Assembly (NCBI RefSeq): GCF_013376155.1
Contig: NZ_JABXXP010000001.1
Coordinates: forward strand, 1-64,000
Reading direction: 5' to 3'
Length of the DNA: 64,000 nt
From: Nguyenibacter vanlangensis
GTDB lineage: Bacteria; Pseudomonadota; Alphaproteobacteria; Acetobacterales; Acetobacteraceae
Part shown: positions 18,091-60,685 of the stretch, piece after piece
How positions within the stretch are numbered: the stretch's first letter is position 1
Layout of the letters: the number at the start of each line of letters is the position of its first letter
Made by a program: the position numbers and the translations under genes
The notes under the pieces: model-generated
What the model was told of the DNA's origin: nothing
Databases searched by the model: none
What the model saw: the letters and a program-made list of their open reading frames with translations, nothing else

Positions 18091-18148
18091 TTTAGTGCCC
18101 TGCCCGAGAAATTCTTATGAGAATTTCTCGGATCAGCAGGCCACTAAA
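18091..18148. repeat. long two-stage inverted repeat, REP/MITE-like
   Basis: The inner arms CCGAGAAATTCT (18104-18115) and AGAATTTCTCGG (18120-18131) are perfect with a 4-base loop. Outer arms at 18091-18103 and 18136-18148 match at 12 of 13 bases (TTTAGTG against CACTAAA at the tips). The whole can fold into one long stem with a small bulge. There is no T-run, so a simple terminator is less likely than an extragenic palindromic element. Confidence 0.7.
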
Positions 18149-18157
18149 ATATTGATT

Positions 18158-18212
18158 CTAGTGTCTTTTCGATTCCGAAATTCGCTTGCCAATTTCGGAA
18201 TCGGAACACTAG
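18158..18212. repeat. second long inverted repeat with CTAGTGT/ACACTAG tips
   Basis: Inner arms GATTCCGAAATT (18171-18182) and AATTTCGGAATC (18191-18202) are perfect with an 8-base loop. Outer tips CTAGTGT (18158-18164) and ACACTAG (18206-18212) are also perfect. The tip sequence (TAGTG/CACTA) and the two-stage form resemble the neighbouring element at 18091, so the two are likely members of one repeat family placed in tandem, 110 bp upstream of the DUF6328 gene. Confidence 0.7.
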
Positions 18213-38590: not shown

Positions 38591-39370
38591 TTTTTCGTGC
38601 ATTCATGGACCCGATTCACCCTTCGGAAAACAGGACGATATTTGAAAACGGACAGCAGATAGTGTGATACGCCATGTTTTACACAACCCTGTTTCGCAAA
38701 GGCGTCCCGTTTTCCATATGGGTTATATTGTCGAGCAGGATGCTACGACGTTGCGCGCATAGAACTGGCTGTCACCCGCATGAAATTCGACCGCCCGTGG
38801 TCCTCATGAGGGGACCACTTCAGGGCTATGGAGGCCCGGCCAGCGATCCCGCCAAAGCGCCGGGACGCCGCCGTTTCCTACCCGCAAATGAGCTTATCGC
38901 AACCGCCATCTGGTGGAAAATCTTGGGGTTCGCCTGAAGGAATGGTGTGCCGTCACAACCCGATATGAAAAGACCGCCGCCTCATTTAGCCGCAGATTGG
39001 ATCAAGGTCTAACGGGCCCTAAATATTTTTCATCTCATCCATATCGGTGGTTTTGAAAGCATGCTCCACGACCCGAACACCAGCACTCATGTCGCGAGCG
39101 TTTCCGGCAGTCATGACGCGTGCCGCCTGAAAAGCCCTTGGCGGTGTAATTCATTTGGCGTGCCCTCAGGGACAGCCTCGTGACGAAGACAGCACAATCG
39201 GTCAAAGCACCATCACATTAAACAATCCATGTGGCAGAGACTCTTTTACATTTTTGTTTTTAGAAGCTGTCGCTTCATCAACGGCGCAGTGGCGACGGGT
39301 GGGTTTTTCTCTGCTTATGCCATTGCGTATGGCGCCATGTCAGAATGACAATAATTATAGAAGGGACAGC
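38591..39370. other. 780-bp non-coding/decayed stretch
   Basis: Between the LLM remnant and the YcaC-like gene only short frames occur, none with a recognisable motif, start site or codon bias. Base composition is more AT-rich than flanking genes, notably at 38990-39060 and 39210-39270. The last 60 bp presumably carry the promoter of the hydrolase gene. I see no hairpin of note. Confidence 0.55.
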
Positions 39371-40030
39371 ATGAACACCATCGCGACACATGATGGGCCG
39401 GCGATTGGCGGCACTCCTCTTCTTGACGCCAGCGATTGCGCGCTGGTTCTGGTCGACGAGCAGGCAGGCCTTGCCTTTGCCACCGGATCGGCCGATCGCC
39501 AAGTCCTGCGCAGCAACGCAATCGCGCTTGCCCGTACCGCGACAACCTTCGGTGTGCCGGTGGTCGTCAGCACCTCCGCATCGAAGGTTTATAGCGGCCC
39601 GCTGATGCCGCCGCTCCGCGCCGTCCTGCCCGACGTAACACCGATCGAACGACGCAGCATGAATCTGTGGGAGGACGGAGCAGCGAAGGCCGCGGTGATC
39701 GCGACAGGTCGCAAGATACTGGTGGTTGCAGGACTATTGACGGAGGCCTGCGTCAGCTTCCCCGTGCTATCAGCCCTTGCCGAAGGCTACAAAGTCCATG
39801 TCGTTGCCGATGTCTGCGGTGGCCTCACCGCGGCGAGCCATGACGCTGCCCTTCGGCGAATGGAGCAGGCCGGGGCGGTGATGACGTCTTGGCTTCAACT
39901 GCTGCTGGAGTTCCAGCGTGACTGGACACGCCATGAAACCTATGAAGCCGCGCGATCGATCGTCGTCGATCATGGCGGGGGCTATGGCATCGGTCTGGAC
40001 TATGCCCGTGACATGATCAAGCCCGCATAA
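39371..40030 (+). CDS. isochorismatase-family hydrolase, YcaC-like
   Basis: A 219-residue cysteine hydrolase. The catalytic Asp is in LVLVDEQ (Asp29) and the nucleophile in TEACVSF (Cys127), with the family's cis-peptide-type context GLLTEACV. The C-terminal EFQRDWTRHETYEAA and GGGYGIGLDYARDM are specific to the YcaC group, whose substrates are unsettled (amides or related). ATG at 39371 is preceded by AAGGGACAG. A paralogue is encoded at 53740. It is upstream of an MFS pump on the same strand, which suggests a detoxification pair. Confidence 0.9.
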   Translation: MNTIATHDGPAIGGTPLLDASDCALVLVDEQAGLAFATGSADRQVLRSNAIALARTATTFGVPVVVSTSASKVYSGPLMPPLRAVLPDVTPIERRSMNLWEDGAAKAAVIATGRKILVVAGLLTEACVSFPVLSALAEGYKVHVVADVCGGLTAASHDAALRRMEQAGAVMTSWLQLLLEFQRDWTRHETYEAARSIVVDHGGGYGIGLDYARDMIKPA

Positions 40031-40034
40031 TTCG

Positions 40035-40169
40035 ATGGTAGGCGATCTTCGCGATATCGAGCACCGTTTTCCTGTCCGTTGGGATCGCGGCAGCCTGATG
40101 CTCGCTTCCCTGCCCTCCACCTGCCATGCCTTTCTTGACGAGCTCACCGCCGACGGGTGGAGCGCATGA
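40035..40169 (+). CDS. possible 44-residue leader/small ORF coupled to MFS gene
   Basis: An ATG at 40035 opens a 44-codon frame (MVGDLRDIEHRFPVRWD, then LTADGWSA) whose TGA overlaps the MFS ATG (ATGA at 40166-40169). The overlap suggests translational coupling. No ribosome site is evident and no family is recognised; it could also be the tail of a lost gene. It begins 5 bp after the hydrolase stop. Confidence 0.3.
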   Translation: MVGDLRDIEHRFPVRWDRGSLMLASLPSTCHAFLDELTADGWSA

Positions 40170-41688
40170 CCTCGCGCGCGCAGTCCGCTGATGCCAGCCC
40201 TCTCACGAAAGGTGCGCTTCCTTCCTCGCCCACAGAAAACAAGCGCTTCGTCACGGTCTTCCTGAGCGTGGCACCCGCGATGTTCCTTGGTTCGCTCGAC
40301 CAGACGATCGTTGCGACTGCGTTGCCGGCGATCGCCACATCGCTGCATGGCTTCACGCAGATCGCCTGGATTGTCACCGCCTATCTACTGTCAGCGACGG
40401 TCGCGGCACCGATCTATGGGCGGATCGGCGACGCAGTGGGGCGCAAGCCTGCGCTGCTGGGGGCGTTGGCACTGTTCATGGCGGGTTCGCTCGGCTGTGG
40501 GTTGGCGCCTGACCTTACCACGCTGGAGGTCGCCCGCGCCATGCAGGGGCTGGGCGGCGGCGGTCTAATGACCCTGTCGCAGTCGCTGATTGGCGAGGCC
40601 GTGAATCCGAAGGATCGCGGCCGCTTTCAGGGCTGGTTCGGCGCGGTATTTGCGCTCGCCAGCACGTTAGGGCCCATCGCTGGAGGCCTCTTGTCCGAAC
40701 ATGTCGGGTGGCGCTGGATTTTCTGGACCAACATACCTCTCGGCCTCGGGGCGGCGGTCGCCGCCTGGCCGTTAGCGGCTGAGAAGGGTCAAGGGCCTTT
40801 CACGCTCGACGTGCCCGGTACGTCGGTGTTCGTCGGCGCGACGCTCGCCTTGCTGCTGGTGCTGACGCAAGGACCAGACTGGGGCTGGACTTCGACGACA
40901 GTGCTCGCTCTGGGCGGTGCTGGAATTCTCGGCTTCGCTCTGCTGCTACCGATCGAGCGTCGGGTTGCCGCGCCATTGATTTCGCCGGCGCTATTGCAGA
41001 ACGCGATCGTCTGGCGGGTGACTTTATGCACCACGCTGTTTGCCGCGGCGCTTTTCGCGGCGGTGATCCAGGTACCGCTCTTGTTGGAACTAGTGCTGGG
41101 CCTGAGTCCAAGTATATCCGGTCTCTTGCTGATCCCGCTGACACTTGCGCAGGTGATCATCTCGACTTGTACGGGTTTGCGCATCTCGAACACCGGCCTG
41201 CCCCGCGGGCCACTGGTTTGGGGACTGGGAGTTGCCTCAACTGGTTTCGCGCTGCTTGCCGCGACAATCGACCAGGGCGCCTGGATGATCGCAGGTGCCT
41301 CGGCCCTGTTCGGGCTTGGCCTTGGAACCACGATGCCAGCGGCCCAGACGATGGTGCAATGGGCGGGCGGCAAGGCGCATCTGGGCACCGCGACTGCGAC
41401 ATTGTCCTTCGCGCGTTCGATTGGAGGGGTGATGGGCACGGCGGCGACTTCGGCGATCCTGCTCCTGGCAATGGAGTGGCAGGCACCGGGGCCGTGGCGC
41501 AGGTCCAGGCAGCGCTCGATGTGCCCACCAGCGGCATCGCGGCTGCGGCATTTCCATTAAATGCGATCCGTGAAGCCTTTCGCTGGGTATTCGGGGCGAT
41601 GGCGATGATCGCGCTCGCCGCCGCGTTGCTCGCCATCAGCATCCGGGCGATCAACCTCGGCGACCCCGAGCCCACGGAAGAAGCATGA
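40166..41688 (+). pseudogene. MFS transporter (DHA2, EmrB-like) frameshifted near the 3' end
   Basis: From ATG 40166 (or GTG 40157) the frame encodes a DHA2-type pump: PAMFLGSLDQTIVATALPAIA in helix 1, YGRIGDAVGRKPALL in the motif-A loop and LGLGTTMPAAQTMVQWA late in the sequence. After LLLAMEW near 41480 this frame becomes Arg-rich and stops at 41560. The proper C-terminus continues in the next frame (VQAALDVPTSGIAAAAF, a last helix WVFGAMAMIALAAALLA, LGDPEPTEEA) to 41688. A one-base indel between about 41470 and 41490 explains this; it is either a real mutation or a sequencing error. Thirteen of 14 helices remain in the first frame. Confidence 0.8.
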
Positions 41689-42187: not shown

Positions 42188-44449
42188 TCAAATGACTCCG
42201 ATCGCCGCTTTGACGCGCGCAGGGCTGAGCGGCATCTCGCGCAGGCGAACTCCGACGGCGTCGGCGAGCGCATTTGCCAAAGCGGCCGACGTGGGGCCTT
42301 GCGCGCATTCCGCGGTCCCGAGAAAGGGCATGCCGACGCTGTCGATCACATGAACCTCGACCGAATGCGGCGCGTCGGCGAAGCGCAGGATGGGGTACAT
42401 GCCCCAATCAAAGCTCGTCCGCCGGTTGGCATCGAACGTTACGGACTCATGGGTTGTCCAACTCAGTGACTGGATAATGCCGCCTTCGACCTGGTTGCGG
42501 ATGCCGTCCGGATTGACCGGTTGACCGCTATCCACGGCAGCAACGGCACGCAATACCGCGATGCGGCCAGTCTCGCGCTCGACTTCGATGTCGAGCATGA
42601 CGGCACAATACGCACCCACATTCTTGTAGCGGGCAAATCCCATGCCGCGGCCTCGCCGGCCATCGCCCCGGACTCCGTTCACCCAGCCGAACCGCTCGGC
42701 CGCCGTCTGCATGACCGCACGCGCGCGCTCGTCCTTCATGTGCGCCAACCGCAGAACCAGGGGATCGACGCCGCTGGCTTTCGCCAATTCGTCAAACATG
42801 GATTCGATCGAGAAAACATTGAGATGCGCGCCAAGCGAGCGGAGTGCCGAGACGCGGATCGGCATATCCTTCAGGAAATGATAGAGGACATGCATGTTGG
42901 GCAGCGTGTAGAGCGGGTTCGCATTGCGATCTCCGTCGCCCTCGGGCATCGGTATGGGTTTGCCCTCCGGCGCGGGGAACGGCGGCACCACCTCGCCGCC
43001 GACCAGCACGCCGCCGGCGCCGACCGGCCGGTTGTTATGGGGATTGCTCCAGACATCATAGTTCCAGGCGACAATACGGTTTTGAGCATCGAGCGACGCC
43101 TCGACCTCGGTCACCATGGCTGGCCCCAGCGGCTCCCAACCGAACTCCTGCTCGCGCATCCATTGCAACCGAATTGGCCGCCCAGGCACGGCCTTTGCGA
43201 TCATGGCGGCTTCCGCAGCAACGTCATCGGCGCCATTCTGGCCGTAACACCCGGCCCCTTCGACATGGATCGCATGCACGTTCGCAGGCGGCAGATCAAG
43301 AAGCTCGGCCGCGACGCGACGAACGTCGTATGTGCCCTGGCTGTGCGTCCATATGGTCATCCTGCCGTCCCGGAACATCGCGACCGCACAAGACGGACCG
43401 ATGGATCCGTGGCTGAGCCACGGTCGCGTATAGCGTGCCCTGACGGTGCGAGCGGAAGGCTCGGTCACATCGTGGGTGTCGAGAACGACAATCTCTTCGG
43501 GCGGCAAGCTCCTGAGCGTCGCGACGACGTCGCCCTGAGGGATCGGCGGCACCATCCGGACGAAGCCCGTCTCCTGAAGCCGTCGCAGCGCCGTGATCAC
43601 GGTCCATTCGCGGTCGGCGACCACGGCGACGAACGACCCGACCTGCACGATTTTGACCACGCCGGCGAGGCCCTCGACGGCCGCGACATTCAGTGGATCG
43701 AGGCGCGTGCCGACACTCGGGCCGCGCACGACACGTGCATGCAACATTCCCGGCACGCGCATATCCTGCACATACGCGGCCCCACCCGTCAGTTTTGCCG
43801 GGATGTCGACACGCGCCAGTGCCGTGCCCATCGTACGAAACAGCTTCGGATCGCGCAGGGGCACATTGGGAAGCGCTTCGACATGCAGCGAGAGCGAGGC
43901 CGCAAGCTCGCCATAGCGCGCCGTGCGGCCGGTTGCACTATGCAGTCGACCGTCACCGCTTGTGCCGATGGTGTCCGGCGCCACGTCCCAGGCACGCGCG
44001 GCCTCCTGAATCAACAGCATGCGGACATTCGCGGCGGCATTGCGAAGCGCGCTGCCGCTATCCTGCATCGAGTGACTCCCGGCCGTCAGGCCTTCATCAG
44101 GCGTTCTCTCCGTGTCGACGGTCACCAGTTCGATCTGCCCAGGCGCCACATCCAGTTCCTCGGCGGCGACCTGCAGCAATGCGGTCCGGATGCCTTGTCC
44201 CAGTTCGGCTTTGCCGGTGAAGGCGGTGATATGCCCGTCCGCATCGATGCGGATCCATGCGTCCAGCCATGGCGTGGATTTCAGGCTTCCCGGCAGGTTC
44301 GGCGCGACGATGCGGGGGCCGGCACCCCCTTCCCCCCCACCAGCGAGTTGCGCGAACGCACGCGGCGTTATCGCGAAGGAGACGACAAGTGCGCCACCAC
44401 CGAGGAAAGAGCGGCGCGACAGGGGCGGAGCAGCATTCAAAATGCTCAT
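42188..44449 (-). CDS. molybdopterin-binding subunit of aldehyde/isoquinoline-type oxidoreductase
   Basis: A 753-residue large subunit of the xanthine-oxidase family. ATG at 44449 gives an N-terminal Tat signal (SRRSFLGGGALVVSFA, ending RAFA); the longer frame to 44650 only overlaps the [2Fe-2S] gene. Domain motifs: FTGKAELGQGIRTALLQ, MQDSGSALR, GAGCYGQNGADDVAAEA and GTAECAQGPTSAALANA with the likely catalytic Glu region. Together with the [2Fe-2S] and cytochrome c subunits it would oxidise an aldehyde or N-heterocycle in the periplasm and pass electrons to the respiratory chain. Its start overlaps the small-subunit stop (ATGA). Confidence 0.92.
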   Translation of the reverse strand: MSILNAAPPLSRRSFLGGGALVVSFAITPRAFAQLAGGGEGGAGPRIVAPNLPGSLKSTPWLDAWIRIDADGHITAFTGKAELGQGIRTALLQVAAEELDVAPGQIELVTVDTERTPDEGLTAGSHSMQDSGSALRNAAANVRMLLIQEAARAWDVAPDTIGTSGDGRLHSATGRTARYGELAASLSLHVEALPNVPLRDPKLFRTMGTALARVDIPAKLTGGAAYVQDMRVPGMLHARVVRGPSVGTRLDPLNVAAVEGLAGVVKIVQVGSFVAVVADREWTVITALRRLQETGFVRMVPPIPQGDVVATLRSLPPEEIVVLDTHDVTEPSARTVRARYTRPWLSHGSIGPSCAVAMFRDGRMTIWTHSQGTYDVRRVAAELLDLPPANVHAIHVEGAGCYGQNGADDVAAEAAMIAKAVPGRPIRLQWMREQEFGWEPLGPAMVTEVEASLDAQNRIVAWNYDVWSNPHNNRPVGAGGVLVGGEVVPPFPAPEGKPIPMPEGDGDRNANPLYTLPNMHVLYHFLKDMPIRVSALRSLGAHLNVFSIESMFDELAKASGVDPLVLRLAHMKDERARAVMQTAAERFGWVNGVRGDGRRGRGMGFARYKNVGAYCAVMLDIEVERETGRIAVLRAVAAVDSGQPVNPDGIRNQVEGGIIQSLSWTTHESVTFDANRRTSFDWGMYPILRFADAPHSVEVHVIDSVGMPFLGTAECAQGPTSAALANALADAVGVRLREMPLSPARVKAAIGVI

Positions 44450-44940
44450 TCCAATGGCCCCCGACGCGTGGCCGTGGCAGCTTCCGCGCTGTCCGCCGCG
44501 CGTCTGGCCGCGCGCAGGATGCGCATATGGGTGCCGCAGCGGCATAAATTGGTCTGCATATGCGCGCGGATCTGCGCATCGGTCGGCGAAGGCGTGCGAT
44601 CGAGCAATGCCTAGGCGCGCATGATCATTCCGGCGATGCAATACCCGCACTGTGCGGCCTGTTCAGCCTCGAAGGCCCGCTACACTGGACCGGGATTGTC
44701 GATCGATCCCAACCCTTCGACCGTCCGGACCCGCCTTCCGTCCAACGCGGCAATGGGCATCAGGCATGAAAATACGGCCCTGCCGTCGACCTGCACAGTG
44801 CAGGCGCCGCACTGTCCCAGGCCGCATCCATATTTCGCGCCATTCAGCTGCAGATCGTCGCGAAGCACATACAACAACGGCGTAGATGGATCGACATCGA
44901 GAGCGTGGTCGACGCCATTGATATTCACTGTCAGGATCAT
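44446..44940 (-). pseudogene. [2Fe-2S] subunit of molybdenum hydroxylase with two in-frame amber codons
   Basis: The 164-codon frame starts at ATG 44938-44940 and ends at TGA 44446-44448. The plant-type cluster motif CGLGQCGACTVQVDG is intact. A TAG at 44680-44682 (codon 87) and a TAG at 44611-44613 (codon 110) interrupt the frame; by analogy with the family both stand where Gln is expected (PV-Q-RAFEAEQ and RA-Q-ALLD). The second-cluster motifs AAQCGYCIAG and NLCRCGTHMRIL lie after the stops and are conserved. Start and stop overlap both neighbours by ATGA. It is either a recent pseudogene, a sequencing artefact or a read-through gene. Confidence 0.85.
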
Positions 44941-46226
44941 TGCTTCGCCCCCGCTCCGCGCGCCGCCATGACGGCCGCTTCAAGTTGGGTCCATGGTGTG
45001 CGCGTGCTATATCTGGCGCGCAGATAAGCCGCGATTTCCACGATCTGACCGTCGTTCAGATCGCTCGAGAAGGCCGGCATATAGGGGCCGCGCGTGTCCG
45101 AGAGAGGGTGTATCCCCTGAAGAATCGCCTGCAACATATTGCGTGGATCGTCTTCCTGGATTGCGCTGACCAACGACAGGGACGGGCGGCCTTGCGATAC
45201 CATGGGGGCTCCCTCCCCGTGACAACCGCCGCATGCGCCGGCAAACAACGCGGCGCCGGACGGATGCGCGTCTTCTGCCTTCCTTTTCATATCCACGGGC
45301 CCAGCCCCCCCGTCATCATCGTGGCCATGCCGCATCAATGACGCGACATAGACAGCAATGGCTCTGACATCGGCATCGGGAGCGGAGGAGAGATCGTAAC
45401 TGACCGGTCCCATCGGACCTGCGGCGGCGCTGTGTCCGGCATCGATGCCAGTACGGAGATATGTGTAGAGGGATTGAACGGTCCAGCGATGCGGAGATCG
45501 GTTTGAAGGATCGAGCGCCGGGGCGTTCCACCCTTCCGCGACGCCGCCTGCGAAGGCGCGGTGCCGTTCCTCTCCGCCGGCCAGGTTGCGGGGCGTATGG
45601 CATCCCCCGCAATGGCCGAGCCCTTCAACGAGATAGGCGCCTCGATTCCATTCGGCACTTTCGCCCCGTTTGACGACGAATGGACCCCGATGCAGAAAAA
45701 GCAGATTCCATCCCGCAAGAAGTGGACGAAAACCGAGCGGAAAAACCAGCTCGTTGTGAGGAGCCGGTGCCCGTATCGCCCTTCGCGTCATCAGGAATGC
45801 ATAGAGCGCCATGAGGTCGTCATCAGTCACATGCGTGAAATGTTCATAAGGCAGCGCCGGATAAAGGTGGCTGCCGTCGCGCGATATGCCCTCGCGCATT
45901 GCCCGCCGAAACGCCGCGAACGACCATGAGCCGATGCCGGTTGCCTGGTCCGGTGTTATGTTCGTCGCGTAAAGCGTCCCGAACGGCGTGGCCAGCGGTC
46001 TGCCGCCCGCATAGGGCACACCGCGTTCGGCCGTGTGGCACACGACGCAGTCTCCGATCATCGCGAGCGTGGCGCCGCGCTCTATCAGAGGCACGGGAAA
46101 AGCGCGCGGATCGGGTGGGACCGCCGTCGCGATCGGCGGCTTATAGACCAGCCCGATTGCCACGCCCGACATGACCACCCCAATGCCCAACGCCACGATC
46201 AAGCCGGCTTTCAAGGTTACGGGCAT
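44937..46226 (-). CDS. three-heme cytochrome c subunit
   Basis: A 429-residue protein with one N-terminal hydrophobic segment (LIVALGIGVVMSGVAIG) that acts as signal or anchor and three CxxCH heme sites: CVVCH near residue 59, CGGCH near 206 and CGGCH near 335, each starting its own cytochrome c domain. This is the architecture of cytochrome subunits of periplasmic alcohol and aldehyde dehydrogenase complexes in acetic acid bacteria. It is first gene of the operon with the [2Fe-2S] and molybdenum subunits and would carry electrons to ubiquinone. Confidence 0.93.
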   Translation of the reverse strand: MPVTLKAGLIVALGIGVVMSGVAIGLVYKPPIATAVPPDPRAFPVPLIERGATLAMIGDCVVCHTAERGVPYAGGRPLATPFGTLYATNITPDQATGIGSWSFAAFRRAMREGISRDGSHLYPALPYEHFTHVTDDDLMALYAFLMTRRAIRAPAPHNELVFPLGFRPLLAGWNLLFLHRGPFVVKRGESAEWNRGAYLVEGLGHCGGCHTPRNLAGGEERHRAFAGGVAEGWNAPALDPSNRSPHRWTVQSLYTYLRTGIDAGHSAAAGPMGPVSYDLSSAPDADVRAIAVYVASLMRHGHDDDGGAGPVDMKRKAEDAHPSGAALFAGACGGCHGEGAPMVSQGRPSLSLVSAIQEDDPRNMLQAILQGIHPLSDTRGPYMPAFSSDLNDGQIVEIAAYLRARYSTRTPWTQLEAAVMAARGAGAKQ

Positions 46227-46299: not shown

Positions 46300-47421
46300 T
46301 CACACCGCCGCCTTGGCGCCGTCGTCATGCGTAAGAAACGGGTAATCGGTATAGCCGACCGCCGAACCGCCGTACAATCCGACATGACGGAGGTCATTAT
46401 AAGGGCCACCCTGACGCATCCGCTCCGGCAAATCGGGGTTCGCGATGAAAAGACGGCCGAACGCGACGGCATCCGTACTTCCCTCTGCAACCAACGCCGC
46501 CGCGTGTTCCGGGGAGAGTCCCGCATTGACGATGAGGGGCCCTGTGTAGCGGGGCTTGAAAAGAGCCAGGAGCCGCGCGAGATCGGGAGCGCCGGTCCAT
46601 GCATTCGTGTCGGCAAGATGCACATACGCAAGGCCGGCGCCATTCAGCCACGTTGCCAGGGACGCATAGGTCTCGTCGGGGTCCGGGTCGGCGACATTAT
46701 TGTAATCTGCATAGGGTGACAGCCGAATGCCGACGCGTGTCAGGGGAACGACCTGCCCGACGGCTGCCAGGATTTCACGCAGAAACCTCGCTCGGCCAGT
46801 TGCGTCACCACCATATGCGTCGGTTCGCCGATTGGTGCCGGGAGACAGGAACTGATGGGGCAAATACCCATTCCCCGCGTGAATTTCGACACCATCGAAG
46901 CCGGCGTCGCGCGCATTCGCCGCAGCGATGCGATACTCGTCGATAGCGTGCGTGATGTCGGCATGCGTCATCGCGCGAGAATGCGTCGCGTTGATCCGAA
47001 CATACGCACCGTTTTGCAGAAGCCCCCAAACCTGCAACTCGCCGAGATCATGGTTGACCCCCGATGGGGAAAGCGGCTCCCGCCCGGCCAGAATTCCACG
47101 AGCCCCCGCCCTGCCGGCATGCCAAAGCTGGGCAACCATGCAGCCGCCCCCGGCTTTGGCACTCGATACAATCGCCTGCCAGGCGGCACTCTGTTCTGGC
47201 GTCCATAATCCCGGCGCGCGCTCGAATGCCGCCGAGAGTGGCCCGACGTTGATGGCCTCGGTAATTATGAGACCCGCTCCCGCACGTTGCCGGTAATATT
47301 CGGCGGCGGAAGCGTTCGGAATACCATCGTCCGCCGCCCGGGCTCGGGTCATGGGTGCCATGACAATGCGGTTGCTGAGATGAAGATCCCCAAGGCGAAC
47401 GGGGGAGAAAAGCTCTGACAT
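46300..47421 (-). CDS. alkene reductase, Old Yellow Enzyme family (NemA-like)
   Basis: A 373-residue FMN-dependent ene-reductase that reduces activated C=C bonds or nitro groups with NADPH. The start SELFSPVRLGDLHLSNRIVMAPMTRARA, the FMN/substrate motif VEIHAGNGYLPHQFLSPGTNRRTDAYGG-like block (given here in parts: HAGNGYL, NRRTDAYGG) and the C-terminal FGRLFIANPDLPERM are all present. A strong AAGGAACC site precedes the ATG. It follows a shredded alpha/beta hydrolase gene on the same strand by 10 bp, so the two were probably cotranscribed once. Confidence 0.95.
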   Translation of the reverse strand: MSELFSPVRLGDLHLSNRIVMAPMTRARAADDGIPNASAAEYYRQRAGAGLIITEAINVGPLSAAFERAPGLWTPEQSAAWQAIVSSAKAGGGCMVAQLWHAGRAGARGILAGREPLSPSGVNHDLGELQVWGLLQNGAYVRINATHSRAMTHADITHAIDEYRIAAANARDAGFDGVEIHAGNGYLPHQFLSPGTNRRTDAYGGDATGRARFLREILAAVGQVVPLTRVGIRLSPYADYNNVADPDPDETYASLATWLNGAGLAYVHLADTNAWTGAPDLARLLALFKPRYTGPLIVNAGLSPEHAAALVAEGSTDAVAFGRLFIANPDLPERMRQGGPYNDLRHVGLYGGSAVGYTDYPFLTHDDGAKAAV

Positions 47422-59089: not shown

Positions 59090-60472
59090 ATGCCGGCCGT
59101 CTTCCAATATGAAAGCCTCCTGGGTCTGGTCGCGGCAGCGGTGCTGCTCGAATTCGTCGCCTGGCGGCTACGATTGCCACCCGCCGCCGCTTTGATCTCG
59201 GGCGGGATTGCCCTGGCGCTGATCCCTGGCACGCCGGATCTGAGCATCGATCCCGGTCTTGTGCTGATCGTCTTCTTGCCACCGTTGCTGATGAGCGGCG
59301 CCTATTTCACAGTCTGGCGCGAATTCCGCGCCAATCTGTCCAGCATTCTCATGCTGGCGGTTGGTGCCGTGGGTTTTACCACACTACTGGTCGGTCTGGC
59401 CACCAAATGGATGGTGCCCGGACTGCCATGGGCGGTCTGTTTCACGCTGGGGGCGATCGTCTCGCCGCCGGACGCGGTGGCGGCAGATGCCGTGCTGGAA
59501 CGCGTCAGCCTGCCAAGCCGGATCACAGCCCTGCTGCGCGGAGAGAGCCTCTTGAATGACGCGGCGGGCCTGGTTCTGTTCCGCTTTGCACTTACAGCCG
59601 CATTGACCGGAGCATTCAGCCTGGCGGACGCGATCAACACGTTCTGCGTGCTGTCGATCGGCGGGGTCGTGGTCGGCTACATAATCGGCCAGGGAGGATT
59701 GTTCCTGATTCGCCGGTTACGCGACAGCGAACTGGCCATTGTCGCCACGTTCCTCCTGGCCGCGATCGCCTATATCGGCGGCGAGAGCCTGCATGTCTCC
59801 GGGGTGATCTCGACAGTCACGGCCGGGCTTCTGGTCGGCTGGCACCAGCACACCGACTTCAGCGCCGCGACCCGCGTGAGGGCCCAAGCCTTCTGGAAAA
59901 TCACCGTATTCCTGATGGAATCGGTTCTGTTCATCATGATCGGCCTGTCGCTGAAAGGCGTGCTGGCGCGGATCCACACGGTCGATGACGGGCTTCATAC
60001 CCTGCTTCTTCCGGCCGCAATCGTCGTCGCAACCGTCATTATAGCGCGCTTTGCTTGGCTGCTGGGCTCTCATGTCCTGCTGCGTACGATACAAATGTTT
60101 GGTTTTTTTCGCGCACGCCGCTCCTCGGTCGCTACAGCGGCGCTTATGAGCTGGGCAGGAATGCGTGGGGTCGTAACTTTGGTGGCCGCATTGTCGCTAC
60201 CGGATTCGCTGCCAGGCCGTGATATGATTCTTGTATCGGCGTTTGCCGTGATTCTTGTCACCGTACTGGTGCAGGGCAGCACTCTCGGACGGGCGATACG
60301 CTGCCTGCGACTGAACGGAGCGGAAGACCTGCTGGTCCGGCAGGAGAGCGAGGACATGGCCTGGATACGCATGAGCGACGCGCAGCAGGCCGCGGTCATC
60401 GCGATGTCGCAGCAACCTGACGGCACGCAATCACATCCTCGTCTCGTCGAGCAATATACCCATCGGACGTAA
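59090..60472 (+). CDS. Na+/H+ antiporter (CPA1 family), main part
   Basis: A 460-residue cation:proton antiporter with about 12 hydrophobic segments. Family motifs: FLPPLLMSGAYF in the fourth helix, GAIVSPPDAVAADAVLERV, and GESLLNDAAGLVLF with the ion-binding Asp region, then SWAGMRGVVTLVAALSLP. It exchanges cytoplasmic Na+ for H+. The frame is closed by TAA at 60470-60472, but the same frame continues open immediately with the normal C-terminal tail at 60473, so the full gene was probably about 531 codons. Confidence 0.9.
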   Translation: MPAVFQYESLLGLVAAAVLLEFVAWRLRLPPAAALISGGIALALIPGTPDLSIDPGLVLIVFLPPLLMSGAYFTVWREFRANLSSILMLAVGAVGFTTLLVGLATKWMVPGLPWAVCFTLGAIVSPPDAVAADAVLERVSLPSRITALLRGESLLNDAAGLVLFRFALTAALTGAFSLADAINTFCVLSIGGVVVGYIIGQGGLFLIRRLRDSELAIVATFLLAAIAYIGGESLHVSGVISTVTAGLLVGWHQHTDFSAATRVRAQAFWKITVFLMESVLFIMIGLSLKGVLARIHTVDDGLHTLLLPAAIVVATVIIARFAWLLGSHVLLRTIQMFGFFRARRSSVATAALMSWAGMRGVVTLVAALSLPDSLPGRDMILVSAFAVILVTVLVQGSTLGRAIRCLRLNGAEDLLVRQESEDMAWIRMSDAQQAAVIAMSQQPDGTQSHPRLVEQYTHRT

Positions 60473-60685
60473 ATGGCGATCGCGCTCGCCAAGGATCGGA
60501 AGCTGCATCGCCACAAGGAAATCGCGCATTTTCAAGTCATCCTGGCCGCGATCGAGGCCGGCCGTATGGCGCTGATCACCTTGCACCGGTCGGGTGACAT
60601 CCACGACAAGACGCTGAGAAAAATGGAAGAGGAACTCGACATGCAGCAAATCGCCGCCGAGATCCGCATTTCCGAAACCGGATGA
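60473..60685 (+). pseudogene. detached C-terminal tail of the Na+/H+ antiporter
   Basis: Directly after the TAA, in the same frame, an ATG opens 70 codons: KLHRHKEIAHFQVILAAIEAGRMALITLHRSGDIHDKTLRKMEEELDMQQ in character. The pattern LHRSGDIHD and EEELD is typical of the cytoplasmic C-terminus of CPA1 antiporters. It therefore is the antiporter's own tail, separated by a single nonsense codon. It might be translated by read-through or reinitiation at the adjacent ATG, or be lost. Confidence 0.75.

Follow-up and report, generated by a model that had tools for sequence, protein, structure and literature searches.

Ordinary, recent strain-specific gene loss, not unusual decoding, is the probable explanation of two in-frame amber codons in a [2Fe-2S] subunit gene of Nguyenibacter vanlangensis

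Results

A [2Fe-2S] subunit gene interrupted by two amber codons

In the Nguyenibacter vanlangensis strain analysed here, a cytochrome-linked molybdenum hydroxylase encoded by three genes has very probably lost its small [2Fe-2S] subunit, recently and by nonsense mutation. Our collective results point to ordinary strain-specific gene loss in preference to an unusual genetic code. The gene lies in the window, i.e., the whole 64,000-nucleotide stretch of DNA that was analysed (positions are counted from its first base), which belongs to a contig of about 74 kb. Translation of the minus strand from 44940 to 44446 revealed the amber codons that the original prediction had placed at codons 87 and 110 of a 164-codon frame, and the other details described for this gene were likewise read from the sequence: all eight cluster cysteines are kept (39, 44, 47, 59, 98, 101, 133 and 135; invariant in a ten-sequence alignment), and a four-base ATGA overlap is preserved on each side, the ATG of the gene overlapping the cytochrome stop and its TGA overlapping the ATG of the molybdenum subunit gene (Table 1).

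Translated through the stops, the protein scores above the curated Pfam cut-offs for both domains of a xanthine-oxidase-family [2Fe-2S] subunit, Fer2 (PF00111; 36.5 bits vs a cut-off of 21) and Fer2_2 (PF01799; 91.4 bits vs 30.3). As is characteristic of this family, it is encoded together with a molybdenum cofactor-binding subunit, in which Pfam recognizes MoCoBD_2 (148.1 bits) and MoCoBD_1 (85 bits). No NCBIfam model reached its cut-off for the [2Fe-2S] or the molybdenum subunit, the best model for the former scoring 146.5 vs the 290 bits required. Among solved structures, the small subunit nearest in sequence is chain B of PDB entry 8gy3 (E 3.7e-43). The old-yellow-enzyme family gene upstream of the cytochrome gene may or may not form one unit with the cytochrome, [2Fe-2S] and molybdenum genes.

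Table 1. Features of the interrupted locus in window coordinates
Feature	Position	Strand	Remarks
[2Fe-2S] subunit gene	44446..44940	(-)	164 codons + TGA, two internal TAG; from translation and domain matches
TAG, codon 87	44680..44682	(-)	CAG in G176; past the Fer2 match (5-63), within the Fer2_2 match (73-145)
TAG, codon 110	44611..44613	(-)	CAG in G176, there within CCAGG
Codon 145, GTC->GCC, V->A	44506..44508	(-)	third difference vs G176
Cytochrome c subunit gene	44937..46226	(-)	upstream; open; three CxxCH in translation
Molybdenum cofactor-binding subunit gene	42188..44449	(-)	downstream; open; twin-arginine-like leader
Old-yellow-enzyme family gene (Oxidored_FMN)	46300..47421	(-)	upstream of cytochrome gene; open

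The same-species copy is intact and the stops are derived

A search across 14 genomes of the genus, the strain's own included, covered one further genome of the same species among the 13 others, G176 (single contig, 4.75 Mb, 99% complete). Its copy of the [2Fe-2S] gene is 99% identical and has no internal stops. Exactly three differences separate the two copies over 492 bases, namely CAG>TAG at codon 87, CAG>TAG at codon 110 and V145A, with no synonymous change; each stop is hence a single C-to-T change, as had been proposed. Six blocks, each 98.1 to 98.9% identical, make up the alignment of the whole 74-kb contig to G176, in which 929 SNPs were counted; the SNP density of the [2Fe-2S] gene resembles that of its neighbours and is about half the contig mean. 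Given this normal number of changes, the gene bears no sign of mass error.

Glutamine had been named as the usual residue at both sites, and this is what the homologues carry. Codon 87 is Gln in 29/29 homologues of a first set from the same bacterial family and in 106 members of a larger set of 107 homologues (non-identical, near full-length); at codon 110, 74 of the 107 have Gln and the remainder H, A, K, E, R, V, Y or T. At codon 145 the homologues have V (55), I (41) or A (6), so that V or I accounts for 96/102. Since homologues have Gln at 87 and 110 and V or I at 145, and since G176 is intact, both stops and V145A are most likely derived in this strain. No interior stop was found in the best [2Fe-2S] subunit match across 116 homologous loci (a set that includes some places fetched twice), although five of them have a stop confined to the vicinity of the C-terminal end. 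Thus, an intact same-species orthologue and stops in the derived state, the marks of a nonsense pseudogene, were both found, and recent inactivation is the best supported of the options initially listed.

Stops aside, the window protein departs from the homologues at none of 50 conserved columns. Such conservation is expected of a very recent loss; however, it would equally be expected of a working gene, as 64 of 108 sequences, the strain's own included, score zero, and hence this observation says only that any loss was recent.

Misplacement of the contig was considered and rejected, since it matches G176 almost colinearly over about 74 kb, which places it in the species. When three window pieces were compared with other contigs, their tetranucleotide correlations were 0.44 to 0.78, a span that overlaps the one seen between those contigs themselves, the GC content is alike, and a search of a plasmid collection returned three weak matches only.

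Partner genes are intact

The comparison with G176 revealed 7 SNPs in the 1290 bases of the cytochrome gene (4 nonsynonymous, 3 synonymous), 16 in the 2262 bases of the molybdenum gene (6 and 10) and 4 in the 1122 bases of the old-yellow-enzyme gene (1 and 3), with neither stops nor indels in any of the three. The partner genes had been taken to be intact, and the further disabling mutations sought in the cytochrome and molybdenum genes were not seen. Decay of the whole operon was therefore rejected: its partners lack stops and indels, and the ratio of nonsynonymous (stops counted) to synonymous changes across the three-subunit operon, 13:13, does not differ significantly from 258:416 elsewhere on the contig (P 0.30). 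Both strains carry substitutions at conserved residues, with A284->V in the molybdenum subunit here, and T at P647 of the molybdenum subunit and V at A73 of the cytochrome in G176. Among other genomes, a stop lies inside the match to the molybdenum subunit at one locus (L177, alignment position 335 of 753) and inside the match to the cytochrome at another (L020, position 192 of 416).

Other differences between the two strains

Further coding differences were observed along the contig. A Na+/H+ exchanger family gene (59090-60472) has TAA at codon 461 of 531 where G176 has CAA; the stop lies within the called gene 59090-60685, and the window protein of 460 amino acids keeps its Pfam domain (17-402). 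An isochorismatase-like gene near the operon (39047-40030) has TGA instead of the TGG of G176 at codon 28 of its longest frame, a stop that may precede the true start, the domain beginning at residue 131. Just before this frame, at 39022, G176 contains an additional segment of about 2 kb (G176:C1:1749686-1751657). In an MFS transporter gene (40157-41688), a G run near 41488 is one G shorter than in G176, giving 467 residues vs 510 with the MFS domain (39-428) kept. Conversely, three stops of G176 fall in two putative frames called on the window contig (20697-21281 and 22686-23219). Elsewhere in the draft, the first 20 kb of the 45-kb contig C3 have almost no match in G176 and perhaps represent an accessory element; our base rate for nonsense differences consequently comes from one contig.

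Assembly or sequencing error

The main rival to recent nonsense inactivation is an assembly or sequencing error, i.e., a genuine CAG at one site or at both, obscured by a draft consensus that is faulty or reflects a mixture of strains. We consider this unlikely, albeit worth weighing. The source draft is poor (1307 contigs, 87.57% complete, 3.92 Mb), and several one-base differences from G176 lie in short runs inside called genes (e.g., 41488, 19303 and 60947). However, the contig includes difference-free stretches of 1407, 1235, 1194 and 1156 bases (a longer one, of 2223, spans a G176-only segment). Judging by these stretches and by the 68-70 kb bin, in which just 2 SNPs were counted, the error rate is probably less than about 1 in 1000; at such a rate, two nonsense errors in one 492-base gene would be very unlikely. 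Moreover, most SNPs in called genes (441/716) occupy third codon positions, and G176-to-window changes of the C>T/G>A type are not richer in nonsynonymous changes (112/318, stops included) than those of the T>C/A>G type (103/242), a comparison whose gene list omits the frame of the [2Fe-2S] gene itself, part of which the caller had assigned to an extended molybdenum frame.

Amber decoding

Alternatively, the protein might still be made if both TAGs were read as Gln, be it by a suppressor tRNA, by near-cognate read-through or through partial recoding; this we regard as very improbable. In its favour, both stops stand at Gln positions of an otherwise fully conserved protein, the gene for RF1 was not found in the draft, and one publication (PMC7918605) reports in-frame stops in bacterial genes to be widespread and often under purifying selection. 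The stops of this gene, however, are not conserved, none being present inside the 116 homologous loci or in G176. The suppressor tRNA with a CUA anticodon that had been suggested as a check was not detected either: all tRNA matches were inspected, and a CTA anticodon was absent from the 38 of the draft, which is incomplete, and from the 49 of G176 (48 over the cut-off; the list is without tRNA-Ile(GAT)). A 3' part of a tRNA-Gly(GCC) gene, not called by ARAGORN, was noticed at C2:24900-24964 (L098, G000:C2:24000-26000, about 901-965); it is a fragment like those found where an integrated element ends.

TAG had been described as an ordinary stop elsewhere, and it ends 10 of the 73 genes that a simple caller identified on the contig, TAA and TGA ending 16 and 47, respectively. 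No internal stops were present in the ABC and MFS families of the draft among the 46 matches listed of 96. Genome-wide TAG recoding was likewise rejected, as a six-frame codon model run over 551 kb revealed no TAG excess (33 candidates: TAG 5/1615, TGA 18/5441 and TAA 10/1180); this is a weak test, given that the model failed to flag the [2Fe-2S] gene itself. An earlier codon score was powerless, with no candidates for any stop and a median of 0.11 for known long frames vs a threshold of 0.35.

The missing release factor could be taken as a sign of recoding, an interpretation that we rejected. Not only RF1 but also RF2 and a third PF00472 protein had no match in the draft, while all three are present in G176. 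There, RF1 was identified at 599596 by its 88% identity to the top RF1-model match in a genus relative. Within the 10 kb of G176 around RF1, the match to the draft stops at the final base of contig C246 (4114 bases), some 1.2 kb short of the RF1 gene, and past this point it is limited to short repeat copies. Since a genome with so many TGA stops could hardly do without RF2, and since the contig ends before RF1, the absence of RF1 is most probably a draft gap. A post hoc estimate puts the chance loss of all three release-factor-type genes from the draft at about 1%, with the contig end checked for RF1 only. A dispersed repeat of about 120 bases, self-matching on both strands and with a copy at window position 18093-18210, was observed on more than 20 draft contigs and just beside RF1 in G176.

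Hence, the tRNA, terminator and internal-stop checks lend no support to the suggested amber suppression or read-through. In its boldest form, the amber reading would have the UAGs decoded as Gln by a suppressor tRNA encoded in sequence missing from the draft, or by context-dependent read-through, yielding the full-length subunit at a reduced, perhaps regulated level. We give this very little credence, and we leave it any because the draft is incomplete (3.92 Mb vs 4.75 Mb in G176).

Two ambers are expected from the codons of the gene

All nine codons of the intact copy that a single transition would turn into a stop are CAG, with no CAA, TGG or CGA present, and transitions make up 708 of the 929 differences between the strains. 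A pair of nonsense mutations here would thus be expected to produce two ambers, and the double amber does not point to UAG decoding. If substitutions follow the spectrum observed between the strains, 2.2% of those in the gene would be nonsense; the unconditional probability of at least two stops among three substitutions is about 0.0014, and that of a second stop among the other two, given one, about 0.04. The absence of synonymous changes among the three has a probability of 0.32 under no selection; neither this count nor the operon-wide ratio given above amounts to proof of relaxed selection. The proposal that codon 110 arose by deamination in a CCAGG context gains no general support, as C->T changes at the inner C of CCWGG are not enriched on this contig (5/638 sites vs 401/46,195 for all C/G sites).

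Discussion

We postulate that this strain carries a recent nonsense allele of the [2Fe-2S] subunit gene. Translation would stop at codon 87, leaving only the first, plant-ferredoxin-like [2Fe-2S] domain, and the product would lack the second domain with cysteines 98, 101, 133 and 135, which we take, from the xanthine oxidase family, to bind the cluster nearest the molybdenum. No ATG, GTG or TTG was read between codon 87 and cysteine 98, and with no start codon before that cysteine the second domain cannot be restarted. In the xanthine oxidase family, electrons pass from the molybdenum through two clusters to an onward acceptor, here haem; the path from the molybdenum to the haem subunit would accordingly be cut. 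Translation of the molybdenum subunit probably falls too, because its start sits inside the stop codon of the [2Fe-2S] gene. Possibly, one stop arose first, and the other stop and V145A followed as selectively neutral changes. Among the points that count against the nonsense-loss reading is the unconditional improbability, given above, of two stops among three substitutions.

Some function could conceivably be kept by the 86-residue product or by a paralogous small subunit stepping in, which we hold to be extremely improbable. Paralogues 59% (contig C206) and 50% identical are stop-free in the draft and in G176, and the stop at codon 87 falls after a complete match to the first [2Fe-2S] domain. 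Nevertheless, the four cysteines of the second domain would be missing and cannot be regained by restart, and both the near-invariance of Gln at codon 87 and the lack of interior stops in the best matches of the homologous loci count against this reading.

A literature search on premature stops in Acetobacteraceae aldehyde dehydrogenase found nothing on these topics combined. The case has implications beyond this locus. A suspected instance of amber decoding was resolved as a strain difference by an intact copy from the same species, and a release factor absent from a draft should first be looked for in a complete relative, before recoding is concluded from its absence. Provided that the loss is real, one cytochrome-linked hydroxylase available to the sister strain is absent from this one, which would constitute a metabolic difference between the two.

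The interrupted subunit resembles chain B of 8gy3, the small subunit of an aldehyde dehydrogenase, in the order of its domains, Fer2 followed by Fer2_2, and in its eight cysteines; it is encoded beside molybdenum and cytochrome c genes, and the 8gy3 enzyme is presumably cytochrome-linked as well. The window gene differs in being interrupted and scores far below the NCBIfam cut-offs. With ordinary strain-specific nonsense pseudogenes and in-frame-stop polymorphisms it shares an intact allele in the same species, a derived C-to-T nonsense change and a conserved frame, whereas it departs from them in having two stops, not one, in a short gene. The feature is real but ordinary, namely a recent strain-specific nonsense allele.
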